NCBI GenBank assembly: GCA_003194525.1 | Contig: NBIV01000240.1 | Location: 62,001 to 126,000 of the forward strand | Reading direction: 5' to 3' | Source: Gracilariopsis chorda | Lineage: Eukaryota; Rhodophyta; Florideophyceae; Gracilariales; Gracilariaceae | Length of the DNA: 64,000 nucleotides | Translations under genes and position numbers: made by a program | Part shown: one piece after another, positions 23,127-44,785 of the stretch | How positions within the stretch are numbered: position 1 is the first letter of the stretch | How the letters are laid out: the number at the start of each line of letters is the position of its first letter | The notes under the pieces: generated by a model | What the model was told of the DNA's origin: nothing | Databases searched by the model: none | The model's input: only the letters and a program-made list of their open reading frames with translations

Positions 23127-23534
23127 GTTAAAATAGATTTAACATCAGAATATCATTGGGCATTGACGGGAATACTTCGCTGCCAGCCTCCCATGTGTTC
23201 GCTTTGCCTATGGCTATCTCAGTAGACATAAGCGAAGTCAAGGTCATTGGCTGTGGCGAAATTCTGCGCTCCGCAAAGCCAATAACGAGATTTGTAATAG
23301 TTCTCTAGTATCTCGAGATAGCCATCGCTGACAAGCGTAATTTGAGTCCCCTTTGTGTAATATGCATGATACACAACGACCAAACTACGATGAAGTTCTC
23401 AGCAGACGCTGCGCTGAATTTGTGCTTACAATTTGTGAAGACAATAGCAACCGCCAAAAGGCGCGGCCACTCCATTCTGATGTTGTTCCGCACTTGTCGT
23501 TGCTACCATCCCCAACACCTGTGTCCCAATCTTC

Positions 23535-25569
23535 ATGACAGTAGCAACACCACAGACCACAATTTTCAACGTAAATGAGGGAGAGTTCATGGTCCAAAAT
23601 GATGTAGAATGCAATGCTGAAGACGCCGGTGACGCCTTTTGGGAAGCAGATGATACAGAAGAGTTTCCCGTAAGTGCTTTAGGATCCACAGAAAAGCAGG
23701 AGTTGTACAACACGGTTGCATACTGTGAGAAATGGCATAGTTTGAGTGGTTTATATCTGTCTCAACCACATCTTATCAAACGCGCTTATGCGCATAAGAA
23801 AGAATTGGGCTTGTTCAGCCTCTTTCTCAATCACTCGTACCTGAATTGCGTAAAAACATGGACTAGTAAAGAGCTTCTGAGGCGTGGAAAGCGAACGAAA
23901 CCCCTTCGCATGGATGAGTTGCTAGCATATCTAGGTCTCGAACTTGCGACGTCTGTGCATCGTGTAAACAGGTTGAGGGATTATTGGTGCAAATCAGAAC
24001 TTCTTAGCAATCCATTCTTCAAGAAGGTAATGGGAAGGGACACATTCATGAATATACGTGCTGCGCTACGACTGTACTCTTCATATGATCCAGATCTCGC
24101 CATTGTAGATCCCCTCTGGCATAGTCGTTCTATTCTTGAACACTTCGCAAGAAATTCCGCGTCTCTTGCAGTTCCCGTTGGCGTGAGCTCCTTGGATGAG
24201 AATACGGTGAAATGCAAAGGCCGCACAGCTGCTCGTTCGTACATGAAAATCAAACCCGTAAAGTTCGGGATTAGGTTCTACGCCGTTGTAGGCTGGTCGC
24301 ACGCTTATCTACATAGTTTGCAAGACAATGGTTCTGGGAATAAGACTGGCCAAAGTCCAGTACAGAGGTATACCACATTGTTCCGAAATCTGCGAGGAGC
24401 GGTAGAACGGAAGCTTGATTCGAAGCTGGTCCCGTGGTCGAGCCCATCCGCCTTATGGTGTGCACAGATGGCACATCAGACCCAATTGCATGCCACACCC
24501 GTCCACGGACGACTTATGGTTATGGAAAATTTCTACACTAGGCACGTTGTAGCACGCCAACTCCATCGTCTGAGTGACGGTGAGTGTGGAGTCCTCGGTA
24601 CCGTCAGATTCACAAATGTCGACGGCATAAACCGTCCTGCGCTAAAAGAAGCAATATCGGAGCTCAAACATGCTCGAAGAGGAGATTGGCGATTAGTTCA
24701 AGTTTTGGAGAAGAGTGAAAGTGGCCATTCTCACGTGATAGTTGCACCGAAAGCCGGGTTTTGTTGTTTTCAAAGACAGATCGGTGGTTTCCTTCTATAC
24801 AAGCGATTTGGCCGATACGCCTACTTCTCGTATTCACACACCGGACAATCACGCAGTTAGTTGCGTTCACGGACTGGCTCCGTTGCAGAGATGGACTGGC
24901 GAAGAATCATTACAGCGCACAACTCTACAGGTGCCATCAATAATTGTCGCATACAATCTGTTTATGAACGGGGTAGACAGATTTGACCAATTCCGTTTTA
25001 CAACTGCAACTGTGCGAAAGGAAAAGAGGGTGACGATGAGTATTATGACGTTCATTTTAGACGCAGCAATTATCAATGCCCATGCTCTTCTAGATGCCAT
25101 CTCGAAACCCGGAGACGCCATTATTGACGCTTCGCTAATGAAGCAACGAATTATTCAGGCGCTTGTACACGATCATGTAGAATACAAGCAGGTGAGAGCC
25201 TCATTGTCGGCAGTTGCTCCGACAAACGACTCCATAGTCCCCAACACCGCGCAAAATTCCTCACCGGGGGATCTTCATCTTTTGATGGAGACTGAAGGCA
25301 GAAAGAGTGTGAACTGCGTCTTGTGCGGTTTATTTTCAGTAGAAAAACGTGGCGGGTACACCATGTTTTCTTGCACAGAATGTCAACGAGGTTTCCATGT
25401 GGACTGCTTTTCTCTTTTTCACCATCCCGAGGCCATTCGTAATATTCGTCCTGTTGTTTACAACGCCGTAATACGCGCAAAAGCGAAACTATCCTCTAAG
25501 AATTATCGGAACCGACGGAACAACGTGACTGCTAATCTATCCACTGCAAAGGTTTTGTTCAAGACATAA
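23535..25569 (+). pseudogene. piggyBac transposase (DDE_Tnp_1_7 type), one frameshift
   Basis: Cuts and reinserts the element at TTAA. The first frame is 23535 to about 24740; the rest continues one frame over (24742-25569), so about 680 codons in all. Near 24195 SLDENTVKCKGR holds the first catalytic Asp. At 24522-24533 MENFYT replaces the usual M-D-N-F-Y-T, so the second catalytic Asp is Glu. VDRFDQ at 24973-24990 holds the third. The tail at 25310-25420 has CVLCG, SCTECQRGFHVDC and a later His, the Cys-rich zinc domain usual at piggyBac C-termini. The frameshift falls near 24730-24745, inside APKAGF / HRKPGF. I found no stem structure or classic slippery site, so it is taken as a mutation. 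Otherwise no stops. Confidence 0.85.
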
Positions 25570-29939: not shown

Positions 29940-30465
29940 TGTGGAATATCTACGTGATTGGGTGTCGTGTAGTTGGGTGGAGAAGGTTTTTGTGCTACTG
30001 AAGATTCATGCACGCGTACTGAAGAGATGTACCAGATTGTACATCTGCATACTGCGTCACACGGTGACGGAGATGAAGTGATAATGATGCTTTGTAGGAC
30101 TGATTGTAATGGATTCTGACATTATTGGTGGTCTACTCTGCGCAATTGCGGGTCTATGATAATGTGTAGGACATATACACTATATGTGCATGTAGTCTAC
30201 TGTTACTGAAATACTTAAGTAGTTGTTGAGAGTTCAATAGCTCTCGACTAGAACAACAACGAACTATTTTACAACCGTCTTTCGACTTCTTCTTCTGTAC
30301 ATCCGCGCTTCTTCGCGCTTTTCGTGCTACTCCGCCTCTGTTTGTCCGTAGGGACCTCAACAGCGCATTTACCTTGTGTCTGCTTGTTCGCCATGGACCT
30401 CAGCAGCACTCCGGACTACGGTGCGCCTCGCCCCTGTGGTTCGAACCGACCAGATTGTTTGATAG
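29940..30465 (+). repeat. left LTR-like repeat of a small LTR element
   Basis: Starts TGTGGAATATCTACG and matches 31512-31615 followed directly by 38113-38537 nearly base for base, the second copy being split by the copia element. A stretch near 30410-30450 contains a perfect palindrome GGTTCGAACC. The exact right end could not be fixed; similarity stops shortly after GTTTGATA. Confidence 0.75.
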
Positions 30466-31511: not shown

Positions 31512-31615
31512 TGTGCAATATCTACTTGATTGGGTATCCTGTGGTTGGGAGGAGAAGGTTTTTGTGCTACTGAAGATTCATGCACGCGTACTGTAGAGAT
31601 GTACCAGATTGTACA
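31512..31615 (+). repeat. right LTR-like repeat, first part (before copia)
   Basis: TGTGCAATATCTACTTGATT onward matches 29940-30040. It ends in GTACA, the target duplication of the copia element, and resumes at 38113 with the second GTACA. Confidence 0.8.
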
Positions 31616-31989
31616 TGTTAACTCACCCTGACTCAGCGCCTTTTGTGTCAGGCGCTGAGCAGAAAGAGATGGAACAGACCATCTCACCATCCTTGGGGGT
31701 GGTGAGAAAGCGTCTGGCCTTCTCACCATTCCTTAGGATGATGAGATGGCCTGCTTACAATACCGCTTGGCATGCAGACCCGTAGGATTGCGTTGTAGTC
31801 GAGAAAGACGAGTAGCGTCTTTCTCTACACTATAAAAGGGGAGGAAGAGAGCTTGATCGTCCTAAACTCTCTTCCCCAACCCATCTTCTTCATCAACTAT
31901 CATCTACCTAAGTAAAACCAATTTGGTTTTTTCGATACTAGTCGTAACTACCGATGTATCGCTTTTCATATAATCGAGTTTTATCGACA
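31616..31989 (+). repeat. 5' LTR of copia element
   Basis: Begins TGTTAACTCACCC and ends TTTTATCGACA. It carries the promoter (TATAAAAG at 31831). The sequence after it, TTCCGGAATTAATCGG, is not the usual tRNA-iMet primer site; priming mode is unclear. Confidence 0.95.
31831..31838 (+). promoter_or_regulatory. TATA box in copia 5' LTR
   Basis: TATAAAAG, followed by a purine-rich stretch and an expected start of transcription about 25-30 bases on, near 31860. The same box is at 37954 in the 3' LTR. Confidence 0.75.
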
Positions 31990-32027
31990 TTCCGGAATTA
32001 ATCGGAAGCTCGTTATCTTGATTAAAA

Positions 32028-32160
32028 GTAAGTTCAAATAAGCTCTCTGCAAATTTGATAAATTCTGTTTATTGTAATACGGCGTTGTTAAGCTAAGGCG
32101 AAGGACGTATAAGACCTGATTACTAATTTAAACGATTCTTCTATTTTCTAATTTGCACAG
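32028..32160 (+). other. spliceosomal intron in copia leader that splits the ORF0 start codon
   Basis: 133 bp. Donor GTAAGT at 32028-32033, branch site TACTAAT at 32121-32127, then a pyrimidine-rich run (TTCTTCTATTTTCTAATTT) and acceptor CACAG ending at 32160. Joining 32027 (A) to 32161 (TG) makes AAAATGGCT, a start codon in a favourable context at the first codon of the zinc-finger frame. In the unspliced RNA this frame has no AUG at its beginning. The sites are seen directly; use of the intron is inferred. Confidence 0.75.
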
Positions 32161-32822
32161 TGGCTAATTTCTATTGTCAAAGTATTGTCCCTCGTAACCA
32201 ACCAGGGCCTACTGTTGAAGTAGTTCAACACTTATACCCTATCACAGTGGAGGAACCCGCCACTCCATCACCGCACTTTACATTGCTGGATAATCAGCCG
32301 CCGCCACCGCTCCAACTATTGGCACCGGCCAACAATCAACCAACAGCCAATCAGAAGCCGAAACGCACACCGGTGCTGCACCAGCTCGTTGACAGTGACG
32401 TCGACAGCGAGCATTTCACACCGCCCCGCCGGCACCCCAGTGTAATTGACCTCGAGGCAGAAGAAGTACCCGTACCACGAGTCCCACGTGGCATACCGAT
32501 GCCGAAACCCAAACCTTTCATACAAAAACTTCGTGTTAAAAAGGACAGACTGTATCGGGACCGTTGCCAACCGAAACCACGTAGCCGCAACGTGGCCAGA
32601 TCAAAGAGATTTTGCAAACTGTGTGACATACAGTGCAATTCTGCCAAAAGGTACTTCGACCACAAGCAGTCACGCGGTCACAAGACACGTTTACAGAACA
32701 AACGTGATCCTTCGTTCTGCAAAACGTGTGACCGTCATTTCGAGTCACACCACCACCTCAACCGTCACCTAAACGGCAAAGATCACCATAAGGTGCTTTA
32801 CCGTAAGAATTTAAATAAATAA
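32161..32822 (+). CDS. copia ORF0: tandem U1C/JAZ-type zinc-finger protein
   Basis: 220 residues when the ATG is made by splicing (first base at 32027). The first 110 residues are Pro-rich and acidic in parts. A basic stretch lies at residues 116-151. Two zinc fingers follow: C152, C155, H168, H174 and C187, C190, H203, H209, both spaced CX2CX12HX5H. That spacing marks the U1C/JAZ/matrin class, which binds RNA (often double-stranded) more than DNA. The frame is intact and ends at TAA 32820-32822, 128 bp before gag. Copia elements normally have no gene here. A role in handling element RNA, packaging or nuclear transit would fit but is inference. An origin by capture of a host zinc-finger gene is possible. 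Confidence 0.75.
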
Positions 32823-32950
32823 ACTTCCATTTGCTTTTACGCTTTACTTCAAAACCTATTAGTAGTGTCTAATAAAGATAGTATTTTCTTAAAACAAAGA
32901 AAATATAGGTAATAACTAAAAAGAACAGTACAGTTACTAGTTAGTACACT

Positions 32951-34555
32951 ATGCCTCCACTTAACGGAAACTTCACAACTAATGTCAGGTATGCCGACCC
33001 ACAGCAACGACAATCCATAGAGTTCATTAAGAACATTCAAGAGAATAATGCCGATGCTGAACCTGCGCACATTATTGAACTTTTGAGAACAGGGTACCCA
33101 CCAGACAAATTACTCACATATTCTATTTTGAGTAATGGGTTGCTAATGCGTAAGCTCGCAAAGTTCCTAGAAGATCGAGGAATAACTCTTCCAGAACACG
33201 AAAGTAATCACCTCTTGAAAAGAATAGCTAAAACTATTTTCGAGGTATCAAACCTAGAGGATGCTTTCGCTGCAATAGATTTATTCGAACAGACCCCATC
33301 TTCTGCCCCGAACAGCCGCAATCAACCAGTCAGCAACACCGAACCACAAGAGACCGTCGAAGCTGAGACGATACGCGATGCCTCACCAAGCAAACGTACA
33401 ATTGAGCAAAACCGCCAACGTCAGCCATGGCGCTCTCCAATACCCAACAATGAACCACAAACAAACTTTGGAGACCAGCGAGACAAGATCACTCATTATA
33501 TTGCCTCTCGTTTCAAAGATGAATCTTCCAAATTCTCAGGGGCTCTTGGCGAATGTTGGGAGGAATTTCTAAGCGATTATAAGTATGCCGCTTTAGATTA
33601 CAATCTATCCAACCACCAAAGACTCCAGTACTTGCACCATCTCTTGCGTGGAAATGCAAAACGGTTTTACGTACAAAACGTTGATGGCAGAGTGCGAAGC
33701 TTCAGGGAAGCTTCAGCAATCATGGAAAAGGAATACAACTCTCTCTCCCGTCAGAACCGCATTGCTGCCTATCTACGCAACCTACGAATCCAGAAATTTG
33801 CTTCAAAGAGCTCTTCATTAAGCGACGCTTTGGAGAAACTCCATGAAGAAATTTCCAAGCTGTCTCCACAAGGCCCTATGCACTGCCGATCCGAGCGCAA
33901 CCGGATTGAATATTTACAGAATCCTGTTATTGGGCATTCATGGGCCCGAGACGCCTGCAGCAGAGCCAATGCGGGACTAATTAGCTATCACGAACTTTAT
34001 GGACAGTTGGAAGCCGCAATTCAACTAGATCAGGAAGAGAAAATCGGTCGCATGCGAGATCAGAAAAGTCTTCAGTTAGACTCCCTCTCTACCGAAGATT
34101 TCCAGAATCCCGACACGACTGAGACATTTTATGCTGGCCAATCTCGGTACACACGTCATCCAAATTCCACGAACAGGACAAAATATCGTCAATCCAAGAA
34201 CAAGCGAAACGTTAACTGTTGGAATTGTGGTAAATTTGGACATGTGATAGCTGAGTGTAGGCAACGCAAGGACCTCACCAACACTGCCGCCAACCGGGTG
34301 CAATATTTGCAACGTAACGGCTGTAAGGATCAGAACAAGGCTTTGAAACGCGTTTTATACGAAATCTGTCAACAGCTCGAAGAATCTAGTGATTCCGATG
34401 AGTTTGAACGTGCTGAAACATTCTTTGCATGCAATGGCGATGCAGATTTTAGTGAGGGCAACGAAAATTCATATCCTTCTGAACAATTCTTTGCGTCCAA
34501 CTTTGGAACGCAAAGTAGCGAGCCATCCCTCTCAAACTGCCTTGAAGATTTTTAA
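32951..34555 (+). CDS. gag: copia Gag, capsid protein with zinc knuckle
   Basis: 534 codons from ATG at 32951, no stops. It forms the particle in which the element's RNA is copied. The central part (about residues 180-370) is helical, as in Gag capsid domains. A classic knuckle CWNCGKFGHVIAEC lies at C423, C426, H431, C436 and binds the RNA. The last 100 residues are acidic and Ser-rich, which is unusual after a knuckle. It ends TAA at 34553-34555. How pol is joined to it is unclear: pol is in the next frame and opens only after 34583. Confidence 0.9.
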   Translation: MPPLNGNFTTNVRYADPQQRQSIEFIKNIQENNADAEPAHIIELLRTGYPPDKLLTYSILSNGLLMRKLAKFLEDRGITLPEHESNHLLKRIAKTIFEVSNLEDAFAAIDLFEQTPSSAPNSRNQPVSNTEPQETVEAETIRDASPSKRTIEQNRQRQPWRSPIPNNEPQTNFGDQRDKITHYIASRFKDESSKFSGALGECWEEFLSDYKYAALDYNLSNHQRLQYLHHLLRGNAKRFYVQNVDGRVRSFREASAIMEKEYNSLSRQNRIAAYLRNLRIQKFASKSSSLSDALEKLHEEISKLSPQGPMHCRSERNRIEYLQNPVIGHSWARDACSRANAGLISYHELYGQLEAAIQLDQEEKIGRMRDQKSLQLDSLSTEDFQNPDTTETFYAGQSRYTRHPNSTNRTKYRQSKNKRNVNCWNCGKFGHVIAECRQRKDLTNTAANRVQYLQRNGCKDQNKALKRVLYEICQQLEESSDSDEFERAETFFACNGDADFSEGNENSYPSEQFFASNFGTQSSEPSLSNCLEDF

Positions 34556-34583: not shown

Positions 34584-37500
34584 TGCTCCTCCCAAGCAGC
34601 AGAAAAAAAGGGACCAGCCAAGTCCTCCAACGGCTCACCACGAATCATTCGTTTTTGTACACGTAAGCAAGCACGATACAGTTCACACACACCTCGTTGG
34701 AACCTTATCGACATACATAGCGTAAAGACGAGCTCATTCGACAAAACACGACGCGAATTTCAAGGCGCATGCCTGGACTCTGGCGCACAACAATCCTTAG
34801 TGGGAAAGCAACAAGCCCACGCGTACTGTAAACTTGTTGGCATTCCATTTAAGCCGAAACACTCCAACAAAGCTTTCAAATTTGGAGATGGCGTATACTT
34901 CAGCCGTGGAACCATGCAAGTCCGCATTCCAATCCCTGGCAACACTTTTCTTCCACTAGAAATTGATGTTGTTGACGCCTCAGTACCGCTCCTTATTGGA
35001 CTCGACATCTTGGACTTACACGCTCTTGTACCGGACAACGTGGAAAACATGCTTATCAATAAGAAGCTCAATTGGTCAATCCCAATCACGAGAAAATTCG
35101 GTCAAATGTACTTAGAATGGGACTTCTCTGAGACACTTTACACAAAAAGTGAACTCCGCAAGATGCATATGCACTTCTACCATCCTAGCGCAAGCAAGCT
35201 TTTCAACTTGATCTCCCGAGCAAAGCCAGAAAATGCCACACCCGAGACCAGGAAACTCATGGAGCGTATATCAAAATCATGTGCCACGTGCCAACGTTTC
35301 ACACCCCGGCCACAGTCCTTCCAAGTATCCGTTCCAGGCAAAATAATATTCAACAGTGAAATTGCTTTGGATCTTATGTTTTTGGACAAAATACCGGTAC
35401 TACACGTTGTTGATACACAAACGCACTTCAGCTCTGCAGTATTCCTTAAGAGTCAAACCACCGAAGCGATCTGGTACGCATTTCTCAGTTGTTGGGCAAC
35501 ACTTTACACTGGATATCCGGACAGAATGAAACTGGATAAAGCCAGACAATTTACATCTGCTCGATGGAAAGAACTGACGAGCATGGCTGGAATCACCTTA
35601 CAGTTCTCAGGCGTTGAAAGTCACAACTCCCTTGGCCCAGGCGAACGATATCACGAACCCTTACGACGTATATACCAAAAGATCCGTTACAGTGAGCACG
35701 ATGTACCTATCGCACTAGCCCTTCGTCTTGCTGTAAAGGCTATGAACGATACAGTGAACCCCGAAGGACTTGTACCTTCACTACTTGTATTTGGAGTTCT
35801 TCCCCGCTTCCCGCCCTTTAGCACAGAACTTCCAAATCATGAGGAGCGAATGAGAGCTCTTCAACTCGCGCGCACCGAAATGGAAACCATCACCTCGGAG
35901 CTTCGTTTGCGTCGAGCAGTCGTCGCTCGCATTCCATCTGCCGCAGCAACAAACTTGAAAGTTGGACAAGAAGTTCTAGTTTATCGAGAGAATCTGAAGC
36001 CAATAAAATGGACTGGACCATACAAAATTATGAAAATTGACGACAAACAAATCTACATCAACCGCAATGGCGAAACAGTCCAACATTCTATTGCGCAAGT
36101 CAAGCCCTTCTATCGTGACGAACTAATGAACAACCTTCATATTTGTCTACAACCAATACTTCCTAGTGACTTTGAACTCTATGATGTTCAAATCACTGAA
36201 GTATTAGGTCCTTCCGATGAACGTCGGAACCTACCAGCATTCAGTGAAGCCAAACGAAAAGAGCTGGCAGGATTAATATCCCGTGGAACGTGGAAAGTCA
36301 TCAGAAAGGACGAAGTGTCAGAAGATGCCAACATTCTCACTGGCAGATTTGTGCTCGTCATCAAAAATCCAGAAACTGATGAAGAGATATTCAAAGCCAG
36401 ATTTGTCGCCCAAGGGCACAAAGATCCCGAAAAACCTCTTCTTGTACATAATTCTCCTAATCTGCGACAATATTCAACCCGAATTCTCGTTACTATCGCC
36501 GCTATTCTTGGATATAGAGTATGGAACACAGATGTTCGCCAAGCATACTTACAATCCGCCCAGAAGCTCATGCGTAAAGTATATTTGAAACCTCCAAAAG
36601 AATTAGTTCTTCCACCAGAAATGTTGTTGGAACTTCTTCGCCCTCTATATGGACTTTCAGACTCTGGAGACTATTGGTACAGAACAATAACCACCCATCT
36701 GAAAGAAGACCTAGGAATGAAACCGAGAAAGGGAGATCTGTCATTATTTATGAGACACGAACAGTCAAAGCTTATTGGCTTAACCGGTGTTTACGTAGAT
36801 GAGCTCCTCCAGTGTGGAAACGAGCAGTTCCTGCAACAGGCAAAACGCACCGTTCAGAAATTTGAATCAAAGGACTTGGAAATGGATTGTGCTCTATTTG
36901 CAGGCGTAGATTGCGCACAATGGACAAAGGATTCTCACTCAGTCAGAAACATTATACCAAACGATTGCGAATTCTTCCGAAAGATTGCACCTTCTCCGAT
37001 TTCCGTTCTCTGAGACATAAACTTGCTTGGTTAACTCACACGCGACCAGACATTTGCTGTGCTGTTAACATGGCTGCACAAGTTACGGAACCTTCTTTCT
37101 CAAAGGAAGATGTGAAAAACATCAACAAAGTCGTAACGCATATCCAGCAGACTCAGGACGTAAGTCTGAATTATGTTAAACTTGATGTCAATTCACTTCA
37201 TCTTAAGGTATATTCCGATTCATCATTCGCCAACAACACAGATAACTCATCCCAAATCGGATTCATCATTCTTCTCGTGGATAAGTTTGAAAACTGCAAC
37301 ATTCTTCACTTCTCAAGTCACAAAAGCCGGCGCGTTACCCGATCCGTTCTCGGAGGAGAACTATACGCATTTGCAGATGCCTTCGACGTTGCTTACGTTA
37401 TCAAACATGACTTAGAGTAAATACTCGGGAAAAAAATACCAATCACAATGTTGACTGACTCAAAAAGTCTATTTGATGTAATAACAAAAAGCTCATCGAC

Positions 37501-37739: not shown

Positions 37740-38112
37740 TGTTAACTCACCCTGACTCACCGCCTTTTGTGTCAGGCGCTGAGCAGAAAGAGATGGAACA
37801 GACCATCTCACCATCCTTGGGGTGGTGAGAAAGCGTCTGGCCTTCTCACCATCCCCTAGGATGATGAGATGGCCTGCTTACAATACCGCTTGGCATGCAG
37901 ACCTGTAGGATTGCGTTGTACTCGAGAAAGACGAGTAGCGTCTTTCTCTACACTATAAAAGGGGAGGAAGAGAGCTTGATCGTCCTAAACTCTCTTCCCC
38001 AACCCATCTTCTTCATCAACTATCATCTACCTAAGTAAAACCAATTTGGTTTTTTCGATACTAGTCGTAACTACCGCTGTATCGCTTTTCATATAATCGA
38101 GTTTTATCGACA
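37740..38112 (+). repeat. 3' LTR of copia element
   Basis: 373 bp, nearly identical to 31616-31989. Differences seen include CAGCGCC/CACCGCC, one missing G in a G run, and GTAGTCGAG/GTACTCGAG. It follows the polypurine tract directly. Confidence 0.95.
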
Positions 38113-38537
38113 GTACATCTGCATACTGCGTCACACGGTGACGGAGATGAAGTGATAATGATGCTTTGTAGGACTGATTGTAATGGATTCTGACATTATT
38201 GGTGGTCTACTCTGCGCAATTGCGGGTCTATGATAAAGTGCAGGACATATACACTGTATGTGCATGTAGTCTACTGTTACTGAAATACTCAAGTAGTTGT
38301 TGAGAGTTCAATAGCTCTCGACTAGAACAACAACGAACTATTTTACAACCGTCTTTCGACTTCTTCTTCTGTACATCCGCGCTTCTTCGCGCTTTTCGTG
38401 CTACTCCGCCTCTGTTTGTCCGTAGGGACCTCAACAGCGCATCTACCTTGTGTCTGCTTGTTCGCCGTGGACCTCAGCATCACTCCGGACTACCGTGCGC
38501 CTCGCACTTGTGGTTCGAACCTACCAGGCCGTTTGAT
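38113..38537 (+). repeat. right LTR-like repeat, second part (after copia)
   Basis: Starts with the second GTACA and matches 30036-30465 closely. Together with 31512-31615 it forms one complete copy of the repeat. Confidence 0.85.
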
Positions 38538-41592: not shown

Positions 41593-43341
41593 TTAGATGT
41601 CGAAGGTGTACTCCTGAATTTCGTCGAGCCATCTGCACTGGCGGCCGGTAAGCTTCGGCTTCGAGTACAGATATCGAATCGGGTCATGGTCAGTGCGTAA
41701 AACGAAATGTCGGCCACGTGGACATGGAGCCCAAGTACGAAGGGCAATCATTACAGCAAGGAGTTCTTGGTCTCCAGTGTCCCATCTCGATTCAGTATCC
41801 GAGAAGTGATGGGAAAGGTATGCAATGGGGTGATTGTCTTGCGAGAGGGTCGCCTTACCTGCGTACTTCGAGGCGTCAGTAGACAAGACCAACGTCTTGT
41901 CTGGAGAATAATGGGCCAGGACGGGAGCGGTGGTTAAGGCTAGCTTGATTGCATCAAACGCTGACTCCTGTTGGGCGTTCCACTTGAACTCATGTGATCG
42001 CAGTAGGTCCGTCAGTGGCCGGAGTATGTGAGCGTAGCCCTTAATGAAGCCGCGATAGAAGTTCGTCAGGCCCACTAACTGTTGAATGTGACGTAAATTC
42101 TGTAGGGTAGGCCAGTCTCTGACTGACGCAGTTAATCTTTCCTGGGTGGATACTCCCTTATCTGACACATGTAACTCAAGGAAGTCTACTTCCTTGACAC
42201 CAAAAGCGCATTTGCTGAGCTTTGCGTATAGTTTGTGCTTACGTAAAGCCACGAACACCTTTCGTAGATGCTCTTTGTGTTGTGTTATCGATTTGCTGTA
42301 TACCAATATGTCATCAATATACAGAACCAGACATTCTCCATTTAGGTCCTTCAGTGCTGATGCAATCAGCCTCGAGAAGGTGGCTGGAGCATTCGCTAGT
42401 CCAAAGCATAGGACCTTCCATTCGAACGATCCAAAGCGGGTTCGGATGGCTGTCTTGTGACAATCTTCATCACGAATGCGCATCTGATGATACGCACCTA
42501 CTAAGTCAATCTGGGAGACCACTTTCGCGCGCGCAACTTGATCCAGAGCCTCGTCGATGAGGGGTAATGGGGTGGAATCAGGTATGGTAATTCGATTGAG
42601 AGCACGACAGTCGCATACCATTCGTAACTGACCACTCTTGTTCCTGACAAAAAACACCGGTGCACCAAACGGGGAGGAAGAGGGTCGAATGAGCCCTTTG
42701 CGGAGGAGCTCACCCAAGGTGTTTCGAAGCAGCTGAAGTTCTTCATTGGAAAATCGGATGACTGGACGAACTGGCAGTGGCGGATCCTGTTTGAGATTTA
42801 TCTCAAAGTCCTGTTCTCGGCGTGGGGGAAGCTCGTACGGAAGCTCTTCCTTGAAGACATCGCGGAACGTGTCAACGATGGCTGCCAATTCCGGATGACA
42901 GTCCACAGCGGTTGAAGGATGTTGTAACCGCAGTGCATACAACTCACAAGCTCGTTGCTTGAAGAGCTTGCGCAGTCGTTTAAAGGAGATTGTTTTCATC
43001 GTGGGAGGCTTTGGTCGGGCTGACGCCGCCGTATTGTGACGAGGATACACTGTAGCCGTTGAACCATCTGCGCGCTTGATGGTCATTGTGTGTGTCTTCC
43101 AATCTACGTGCGGGTTGATTACGCCCAATCATTCACGTCCTACTGTCATGAGAGGAGCACCGTCATGCTCTTCGTTCATCTCGATGACAAAGAGAGATAC
43201 TGTGGCGGAAGTTTCGTGCAGGTCCACTTTGGCTGAAGTTTCATGCAACACAGGAATCAAGCTGTGATTGCCAAGTTGCGCTTGAGCGCATACAGAAGAA
43301 TGGAGTCCGAGTCCGCATCGTTTTGCGGCAGCCGGGGACAT
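41593..43341 (-). pseudogene. gypsy protease end, reverse transcriptase and RNase H
   Basis: A 511-codon open frame from 43128 holds reverse transcriptase: SQIDLVGAYHQ near residue 208, FGLANAPATFSRL near 242 and YIDDILVYS at 270, all intact. RNase H follows (LSTDASKYAG, LRTDHDPIRYLY) up to a TAA at 41593. Upstream in the same frame, 43129-43341 (MSPAAAKRCGL) is the body of the protease, ended by a stop just before 43128. The protease active-site part is in another frame (43257-43598, HLDPALRT), so a frame change lies near 43330. Apart from that single frame change and the stops this polymerase is well preserved. Confidence 0.9.
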
Positions 43342-43498
43342 AAAAGCGTGCGAAGCGCCGGGTCCAGGTGGAACGCAACACGGACACCGTTGACATATGC
43401 GTGGTAAATTATGTCCTCGGTGTAGTGCGCATTGACTGCGGAAAGGCGAGGAAGGGTGTCAACACGAACTGAACGAGCTGCACTGGCGTGCGGCGTGG

Positions 43499-44785
43499 TT
43501 AGTTTTTTTGTTTGTTCTTCAACGGCTTCTGCGCGGAAGCAGTAGCAACTGTCATACGACAAGGATGCTTCGGAACACTCCAGGGTTTCTTTCCACATTT
43601 CATACAGCGGTCGTGGCTGCGGTATGTGTCAAGCTCAAGATGGTTCTGGAAATCGGCTGGACCCATCGGTTCGTCGTCTGGATCTTTGTTGATTGCCACA
43701 GCTCTTAGCGGTTTCGTGCTATGGCGGGCTGGACGTTGCGAGCGATTGACTTCCTTTGCATGCGATCTCTGCCGTCGTGAAGGTTGGGAATGTATCCCAG
43801 AATCTTCCCAACTCTCAGAGTTGTACATCATGCGGACAAAGTTGAACAATTCCGACATGGATGGCGGCTGTCCAGATGGGTACCGCTCAGACAGCTTCTT
43901 GCGAAACAGGGTTGGCAAACTGAGTTGGAAATACGTAAAGGCTTCATTGATTGGCGTTGCGCAAATATTGGTGAGCTCGCGGAACTTCGAGATATGGTGT
44001 TCAAGTGACCCGTTCCTTCGCAGTTGGAATAGCGAGAGCCGAGCGTTTGCGTGTTTGTTTGCAGGGACAAACTCTTGGATCATGGTGACTTGTAGCTGTT
44101 CAAGAGAAGCAAATTGCTCTCCAGTTAGAGTTACACGATTGTACCAAAGATCGGCGTGATCACGCAGGAGGCAGACGGCGATATCAACCCCTTCTCGTGC
44201 GGTACGTCCTCGACAAAGATTGGTCACTTTGCGAATGCTTGAAATGAATGACCTAACCTTTGTTGAGTTTCGTTCATGCTCTTTGCTACAGTAGGGAAGA
44301 AAGTTGGACGATTTGAGGACTTGCAACGTCGTCTGGTTCGGTTTTGACTGTTCCTAAAACATAGAGTGCAAGTGCAATGGTTCATGCTGTGCGGTTCTTG
44401 CATCTGGTGGTGCTACCTTTTCCTGCACTATGGCTGGCACCGAACTTGAATGGGTATTGTCACTTGCGCCTAGTGCGGACAATTGTGACCTGAGTGCTTC
44501 GATGGCCACTTGTTGTTTTTCAAGCATTTGCAACAAGACGGGCCCACTTGTCGCTCTTGCGAAGTCGTCTGGGTTGGTCACTGGCCGGAGTGAACGAACT
44601 TCGGAGAGAGCACTGGGCTGCTCATCGTTGGCGATTTGTGTTGAGCGAGCTGAAGAAGACGCGGCATTCTTAGCAAGCGAGGTGGACGCAGGCTGCATTG
44701 AAGACGAAGCTCCACCTGATTTAGACCTCGTAAGCTTGGCTGCTTTCGATCGAGTAGCTATTAATCTTTCTGAAGCCAACGGCAT
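43499..44785 (-). pseudogene. gypsy Gag with one in-frame TAG
   Basis: 429 codons from ATG 44783-44785 to 43499, broken only by a TAG near 44351-44353 (MFTAG then GAACAG). The N-terminal 143 residues are Ser/Ala-rich with a coiled coil (LLQMLEKQQVAIEALRSQL). After the stop comes the capsid-like domain (LRDHADLWYNRV, LEHHISKFRELTNI, typical of Retrotrans_gag). A CMKCGKKPWSVPKHPC cluster follows near the end. Pol overlaps the last 100 bases in another frame. The TAG may be a mutation; readthrough cannot be excluded from sequence alone. Confidence 0.85.

Follow-up and report, generated by a model that had tools for sequence, protein, structure and literature searches.

How can a protein be made from an open frame that has no start codon in the DNA? 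This question is raised by a frame lying ahead of gag in Gracilariopsis chorda contig NBIV01000240.1. The element that carries it belongs to the Ty1/Copia-type LTR retrotransposons and has an accessory gene, ORF0, placed between its leader and gag. Positions given here are those of the window, the whole 64,000-nt stretch of DNA analysed, and the features of the element are on the plus strand unless noted. The best explanation, to which we assign a probability of about 0.82, is that splicing of an intron located inside the start codon would switch ORF0 on, and that the unspliced RNA would be read for gag.

The element and its coding regions

The element is bounded by a 5′ LTR of 374 nt with TG...CA ends (31616-31989) and a 3′ LTR of 373 nt (37740-38112), which differ by 6 mismatches and 1 gap column when compared with each other. 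The 5-bp target-site duplication GTACA (no strand assigned) is found on the left at 31611-31615 and on the right at 38113-38117, and a single GTACA is present at 30040-30044 in a paralogous empty site of the same window. The LTR pair, the duplication, and the empty-site paralogue identify an LTR retrotransposon. The surrounding DNA is locally duplicated (29940-30338, 31512-31615, and 38113-38412); one copy contains the insertion and the other is the empty site. Elsewhere in the window, a frame at 23481-25569 resembles a piggyBac-type transposase and frames on the minus strand at 41593-44353 resemble a Ty3/gypsy element, both labels being assigned by eye.

The gag frame is open over 534 codons (32951-34555), and its CCHC knuckle scores 20.7 bits, marginally below the Pfam cut-off of 20.8. 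Pol, containing protease, integrase, and RVT_2, occupies 34584-37420 as two overlapping open pieces; its frame is broken in the window copy, and other copies hold longer open pol frames. The RVT_2 reverse transcriptase match (73.6 bits, Pfam cut-off 31.6) assigns the element to Copia. The domain order in one frame is also that of Copia (protease at residues 62-148, integrase at 269-343, and reverse transcriptase at 579-781), although two of the matches stay under the Pfam cut-off, the integrase at 30.3 bits against 32.6 and the protease at 17 bits against 26. In the window pol frame 34584-37013, the integrase core is followed by TGPYKIMKID..., which resembles the GPY/F module of Ty3/gypsy integrases, an odd feature for a Copia element.

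Two other splice events were considered and rejected. The gag and pol frames of the window copy do not overlap and have TACTAAT...TAG between them, which suggested splicing at the gag-pol joint. In six other copies, the pol frame overlaps the end of gag, and the joint is therefore coding sequence that is merely interrupted in the window copy. For an alternative acceptor directly 5′ of gag, the two subfamilies of the element described below share no branch-like motif by eye.

The first bases 3′ of the 5′ LTR are TTCCGGAATTA, and the 17 sources scanned gave no tRNA genes for comparison. Positions 31990-32010 (TTCCGGAATTAATCGG) contain a short inverted repeat, and subfamily 2 has a different one (by eye). 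This start is unlike a tRNA 3′-end primer site, and priming of the element may be unusual.

A predicted intron inside the start codon of ORF0

ORF0 (32027-32822) would comprise 220 codons once spliced, starting with A 32027 joined to TG 32161-32162 and ending with the stop codon TAA at 32820-32822. The predicted intron of 133 nt (32028-32160) lies inside the start codon, with donor GTAAGT at 32028-32033, branch site TACTAAT at 32121-32127, and acceptor AG at 32159-32160 in the context GCACAG. Exon 1 ends with GATTAAAA at 32027 and exon 2 starts with TGGCT at 32161, and the predicted joined exons read AAAATGGCT, in frame with ORF0. The initial annotation had described a 133-bp intron with GTAAGT, TACTAAT, and CACAG that joins A 32027 to TG 32161 in frame, and, ahead of gag, an intact 220-codon frame containing two CX2CX12HX5H fingers; both are confirmed in the sequence, base by base. 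It had also stated that the gene has no ATG in the DNA. This is correct for the start of the frame, but inside the frame the window copy has an in-frame ATG at 32499 (residue 114), which is missing from copies L002-L004 and from P0001, a public predicted protein.

We propose that transcription would start ~30 nt downstream of the TATA box. On the unspliced RNA of well-kept copies, a scanning ribosome would meet no AUG for ~1.07 kb, cross ORF0, and initiate at gag, and the same RNA would double as the genome. If the host spliceosome removes the leader intron of 120-133 nt, the A at the exon end would join TG to form the first AUG, in the ORF0 frame, and the spliced RNA would yield ORF0 instead of gag. 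A single intron would in this manner choose between two proteins, provided that splicing is partial and regulated, as we assume.

Host actin-family introns share the grammar of the element intron (GTATGC..CACTAAC..CACAG and GTAAGT..GCTAAC..GCAG). Six actin-family intervals were inspected, with boundaries set by eye: in four, a donor starting with GTA is combined with CTAAC and AG (two of the four loci are near-identical), one lacks CTAAC, and the donor of one was not displayed.

Conservation of ORF0 and its splice signals

A search of the host assembly (91.3 Mb, 1081 contigs) with ORF0 gave 114 matches at E <= 0.001, counted as rows, with some copies giving several. Near-full-length rows, with a query start no later than 13 and an end at 209 or beyond, number 40 by our own count; 24 of them are free of stops and 16 contain stops. 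A stop-free row may still hide a frame break, as seen by eye near the start of L005. Leader and ORF0 DNA were readable in 30 copies, 29 of which have an alignable leader (L009 has no leader). Subfamily 1 includes four copies matching at 97-100% and older copies at 58-74%; most copies of subfamily 2 match at 50-54%, with older copies lower. The ORF0 proteins of the two subfamilies are 52-54% identical. The copies are not independent, and the comparison effectively involves two subfamilies plus a single older branch. Some subfamily 2 matches lie head to tail with a spacing of ~6.0-6.1 kb, as in tandem arrays of elements (G000 contigs C312, C520, C673, C1040, and C1058).

The A|TG junction is the first codon of ORF0 in both subfamilies, and subfamily 2 keeps the split with GTAAGT, TACTAAC, and TTTTAG. 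When copies were mapped to their own subfamily, donor GTARGT, branch site TACTAAY, and acceptor AG|TG were all intact in 24 of the 29 alignable copies, from both subfamilies. The donor is exactly GTAAGT in 23 of these 24 copies and GTAGGT in L020. Signals are broken in L007 (donor), L008 (donor and branch site), L013 (branch site and acceptor), L026 (donor lost), and L029 (acceptor). Intron length is 133 or 132 nt in subfamily 1 (120 nt in the decayed L008) and 120 nt in subfamily 2. From these alignments we conclude that the A|TG arrangement exceeds chance, because it is found again in a second subfamily whose synonymous divergence is saturated and the stop-free rows are as numerous as given above.

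The intron could be incidental if unspliced RNA were itself translated into ORF0 from a near-cognate codon. On the 5′ side of the acceptor the frame stays open as far as 32127, and GTG at 32160-32162 spans the acceptor; subfamily 2 is alike in this, since any AG|TG junction gives GTG. P0001, which is identical to the L004 copy save for its first letter, begins at exactly the predicted first residue of ORF0. A DNA-based predictor using GTG would yield the same start, so P0001 is not proof of splicing. A near-cognate start needs no splice signals, yet the donor, branch site, and acceptor are kept in those 24 copies of two subfamilies, and we regard such a start as very improbable.

Between the subfamilies, ORF0 has pN of 0.34-0.35 and pS of 0.79-0.81 in three pairs (0.353 and 0.786 in the first pair; Fisher P 5e-19 on rounded counts), where pS is saturated and the pN/pS ratios are therefore rough. 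The last 75 codons, the finger part, are tighter, with pN of 0.24-0.26. This dN/dS-type comparison across copies, with pN of ~0.35 well under pS of ~0.79, indicates that ORF0 is under purifying selection. In gag codons 1-100, pS is similar (0.76-0.78) and pN is only 0.07-0.08, and codons 101-200 are faster (pN 0.21-0.22); compared with early gag, ORF0 evolves fast as a protein. Synonymous divergence is lower downstream, with pS of 0.37-0.38 in gag codons 201-300, 0.52-0.53 in 301-400, 0.41-0.44 in 401-453, and 0.30 in the first 98 codons of pol (one pair). Because of this drop after ORF0 and early gag, the 5′ portion of the element may have a greater age, or may have been swapped as a block between lineages. 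The uneven profile between the window copy and subfamily 2, saturated over ORF0 and early gag and down at 0.30 where pol begins, has the look of mosaic elements or of 5′-block exchange.

These data also bear on the idea that ORF0 is a relic or a chance frame without function. The stops in 16 of the 40 rows would fit this idea, and so would the lack of any ORF0 match in the 16 more distant Copia loci inspected in this genome (RT 34-50%). It is hardly credible, though, as pN is far below pS between the subfamilies, all eight finger ligands are kept in the six ORF0 sequences aligned, and 24 of the 40 rows are stop-free. ORF0 appears to mark one clade, because the 16 distant loci are without a match. 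Three of them (L041, L042, and L045) contain one finger-like motif each in one frame or another, none matching ORF0, and the motif of L042 and L045 sits 5′ of the gag match. Ten gag relatives were found elsewhere at 30-69% BLAST identity, and one scan of viral contigs with P0005 gave no match.

The ATG-poor leader

The predicted leader of the unspliced RNA runs from 31861 to 32950, that is, from 30 nt past the TATAAAA box (31831-31837) to the gag ATG. The ATG-poor stretch starts directly downstream of this box and takes in the whole ORF0 coding region. With the RNA start assumed at TATA+30, the leader is 1,065-1,113 nt long in the mapped copies, which are 27 of the 30 (L009, L022, and L026 are unmapped over the whole leader). 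ATG is missing from the leader in 14 of these 27 copies (12 of the 19 subfamily 2 copies and 2 of the 8 subfamily 1 copies), and in copies with such a leader the gag ATG is the first ATG of the unspliced RNA. At most three ATG are present in 25 of the 27 copies, among them the older-branch copies L005 and L006 with one each. The ATG-rich leaders are those of L007 (8) and L008 (10), both decayed and with a broken donor.

Pooled over all 27 copies, the leaders contain 34 ATG versus 525 CAT (our own sums). Dinucleotide shuffles of seven copies gave a mean of 10.3-13.0 ATG, with minima of 2-5 in 1000. In five of these seven closely examined copies, ATG is the sole missing trinucleotide of the 64; the window copy has two ATG and L025 has one. 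The flanks are not depleted to this degree: the 200 nt upstream of the TATA box contain 5-8 ATG, and the initial 300 nt of gag contain 5-7. The flank counts come from 21 copies, the set of an earlier fixed-motif count (21 of 30 copies, 12 without ATG) that the mapping superseded for leader counts. The two ATG of the window leader, at 31954 and 32499, both look recent on comparison with related sequences, because 31954 reads CTG in the 3′ LTR of the same element and 32499 is missing from L002-L004 and P0001.

Low Met content was rejected as a signal in its own right. Gag has only 4-5 Met in 342-456 codons, so 0 Met in ~210 ORF0 codons would be unremarkable alone. Recoding with the ORF0 protein fixed gave a probability of 0.005 to 0.047 for the observed number of ATG or fewer in seven copies, a weaker result than that obtained for the leader as a whole.

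On the simplest reading, AUG in the leader is selected against, and a ribosome that loads on unspliced RNA has to scan across ORF0 before it reaches gag. As the leader is nearly ATG-free, the unspliced RNA should allow such scanning, and splicing would create the start of ORF0. This evidence comes in effect from few lineages, as copies within a subfamily are close, though the lineages are saturated at synonymous sites. The ATG-poor leader is an addition beyond the initial annotation. The sequence-level support for the switch thus comprises the intact frame, the conserved split and splice signals, purifying selection, the ATG-poor leader, and a search that found no spliced-junction copy (below). 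As a counterpoint, subfamily 1 has no more than two wholly ATG-free leaders among its eight, and the window copy is not one of them.

Predicted spliced and unspliced forms

Spliced-junction patterns of the two subfamilies had 0 and 0 matches in the host genome with up to 3 mismatches, and control patterns of the unspliced acceptor (29 and 30 bases) had 6 and 58, a total of 64; at this limit old intronless copies could escape, and the subfamily 1 control consists of 6 junctions only. Frequent back-copying of spliced RNA should leave intronless copies, and their absence from these matches suggests that the unspliced RNA is the packaged form. The view of the initial annotation that splicing is the on-switch gains support from the A|TG split in both subfamilies and the constraint at the protein level. 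Its view that unspliced RNA serves gag-pol is in line with the near-ATG-free leader and with the lack of spliced-junction copies relative to the controls.

The leader intron might instead be removed constitutively, with no switch, and gag made from the same spliced RNA via leaky scanning or via reinitiation downstream of ORF0. Subfamily 2 would form its AUG in the context CCAAUGU, which the usual rule rates as weak, so part of the gag output could also come from spliced RNA. The ORF0 stop lies ~130 nt 5′ of gag, and the lack of an internal ORF0 AUG in well-kept copies would favour leaky scanning too. Subfamily 1, however, makes its AUG in a strong context (AAAAUGG), and under constitutive splicing retrotransposition should leave intronless copies, of which 0 were found versus 64 unspliced junctions (up to 3 mismatches). 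We consider constitutive removal distinctly improbable and favour the switch.

The switch could also be elaborated into an early/late one based on one intron. RNA spliced first would make ORF0, ORF0, as an RNA-binding protein, would then restrain splicing or aid export and packaging of unspliced RNA, and the AUG-free leader would keep the outputs exclusive, a logic like that of Rev/Rex in complex retroviruses. We hold this elaboration, drawn by analogy, to be unlikely.

Between the subfamilies, the intron is 80% identical over 112 columns, with 29 gap columns, and U3 is 82% identical. As the intron is no better conserved than U3, a packaging signal in it would be a guess. The intron RNA of L015 folds with a z score of -1.86, and 7 of 200 shuffles folded equally well.

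Relation to known elements

Drosophila gypsy produces Env, which is encoded 3′ of pol and has a long intron; the element described here instead has a leader intron of 120-133 nt, a zinc-finger protein encoded 5′ of gag, and an ATG-poor leader. ORF0, by its place 5′ of gag and its zinc fingers, is not an envelope product encoded 3′ of pol. The likeness is a start codon joined by splicing, described as AT|G for the Ty3/gypsy element gypsy in the part of the report consulted (PMC2585583) and predicted here, at the sequence level only, as A|TG in both subfamilies of a Copia element. The initial annotation had called the arrangement undescribed, which holds in part: a splice-made start codon is known from gypsy env in that same part (PMC2585583), and searches of open-licence papers did not show the combination. 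Nor did these searches show a Copia element with a splice-made start codon or an AUG-free coding leader.

The MDG1 group of Drosophila, which includes 412 and Stalker2, belongs to the Ty3/gypsy elements. In the sections consulted (PMC11952523), these elements resemble ours in having accessory frames 5′ of gag, sORF1 and sORF2, which bear signs of selection and encode a helix-turn-helix-like protein and a membrane protein. According to the same sections (PMC11952523), full-length MDG1 transcripts gave no evidence of splicing and a short isoform stops after sORF1. Such sORFs would be read from unspliced RNA with their own AUG, unlike ORF0, which has no ATG at its frame start and an ATG-free leader in 14 of 27 copies.

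The Arabidopsis Copia element EVD makes different products from spliced and unspliced RNA (shGAG/flGAG-POL), but its spliced RNA makes GAG and no extra protein, and no split start codon is described in the sections consulted (PMC8892269). Plant LTR elements carry additional ORFs, some 5′ of gag-pol and most often between pol and the 3′ LTR, and in contrast to ORF0 neither a split start nor a zinc-finger product is described for them in the part consulted (PMC7264820).

If the switch operates as proposed, a start-codon intron with apparent selection against AUG would give a simple retrotransposon a full translational switch, indicated by sequence alone, and a 1-kb AUG-depleted leader would double as protein-coding sequence. 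The ATG-poor leader could then be a searchable signature for other elements and viruses, one that may expose protein genes overlooked by ATG-based ORF finders. The gypsy env trick would then also occur in Copia and serve an accessory protein that probably binds RNA.

The ORF0 protein and its possible role

The two CX2CX12HX5H fingers of ORF0 are located at 32613-32681 (residues 152-174) and 32718-32786 (residues 187-209). Finger 1 is the best stretch of the zf-met match (30.8 bits, cut-off 21.2), and finger 2 is that of the zf-C2H2_jaz match (26.3 bits, cut-off 22.6). The initial annotation had called the fingers U1C/JAZ-type; the JAZ part is borne out by these two matches over cut-off, and the U1C part is not, as U1C is absent from the 5 Pfam families matching ORF0 at E up to 1. 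ORF0 is like zf-met and zf-C2H2_jaz proteins in having two such fingers over the Pfam cut-offs, and differs in having no homologue beyond the element family in ~5.8 billion proteins and weak PDB matches (best E 0.029). The relatives found in that set are only P0001 and P0012, both element-type proteins with the source tag lgn, which we take to mean Logan; P0012 is 35% identical to ORF0 over 43%. The whole-genome ORF0 search of the host assembly pointed to no host donor gene, and the predicted fold of ORF0 has a mean pLDDT of 45.8 and a pTM of 0.23. ORF0 is probably an RNA-binding accessory protein, a role suggested by its fingers.

As to function, which is separate from the switch, ORF0 might antagonise host RNA silencing through dsRNA-binding fingers and fast evolution. 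This idea deserves weighing because the host has two stop-free near-full-length Piwi-domain matches. Pfam describes zf-C2H2_jaz as double-stranded RNA-binding, and ORF0 pN (0.35) exceeds that of gag codons 1-100 (0.07-0.08) at similar saturated pS. However, gag codons 101-200 are also fast (pN 0.21-0.22), and with saturated pS the rates are approximate and the constraint may be weak. We therefore regard silencing antagonism as possible, with the odds against it.

Piwi-domain gene fragments recur every ~8,000 bp in G000 contigs C483, C648, C777, and C944, with fragments of opposing orientation separated by a few hundred bases, a pattern resembling a tandem array that bears an inverted repeat of Argonaute pieces. 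At one such locus, L055 (C648:700-3700), no Rfam match at the gathering threshold was found, and an 83-nt inverted repeat of 88% identity is present. An Argonaute inverted repeat of this kind is a possible hairpin source of small RNA against the host's own Argonaute.
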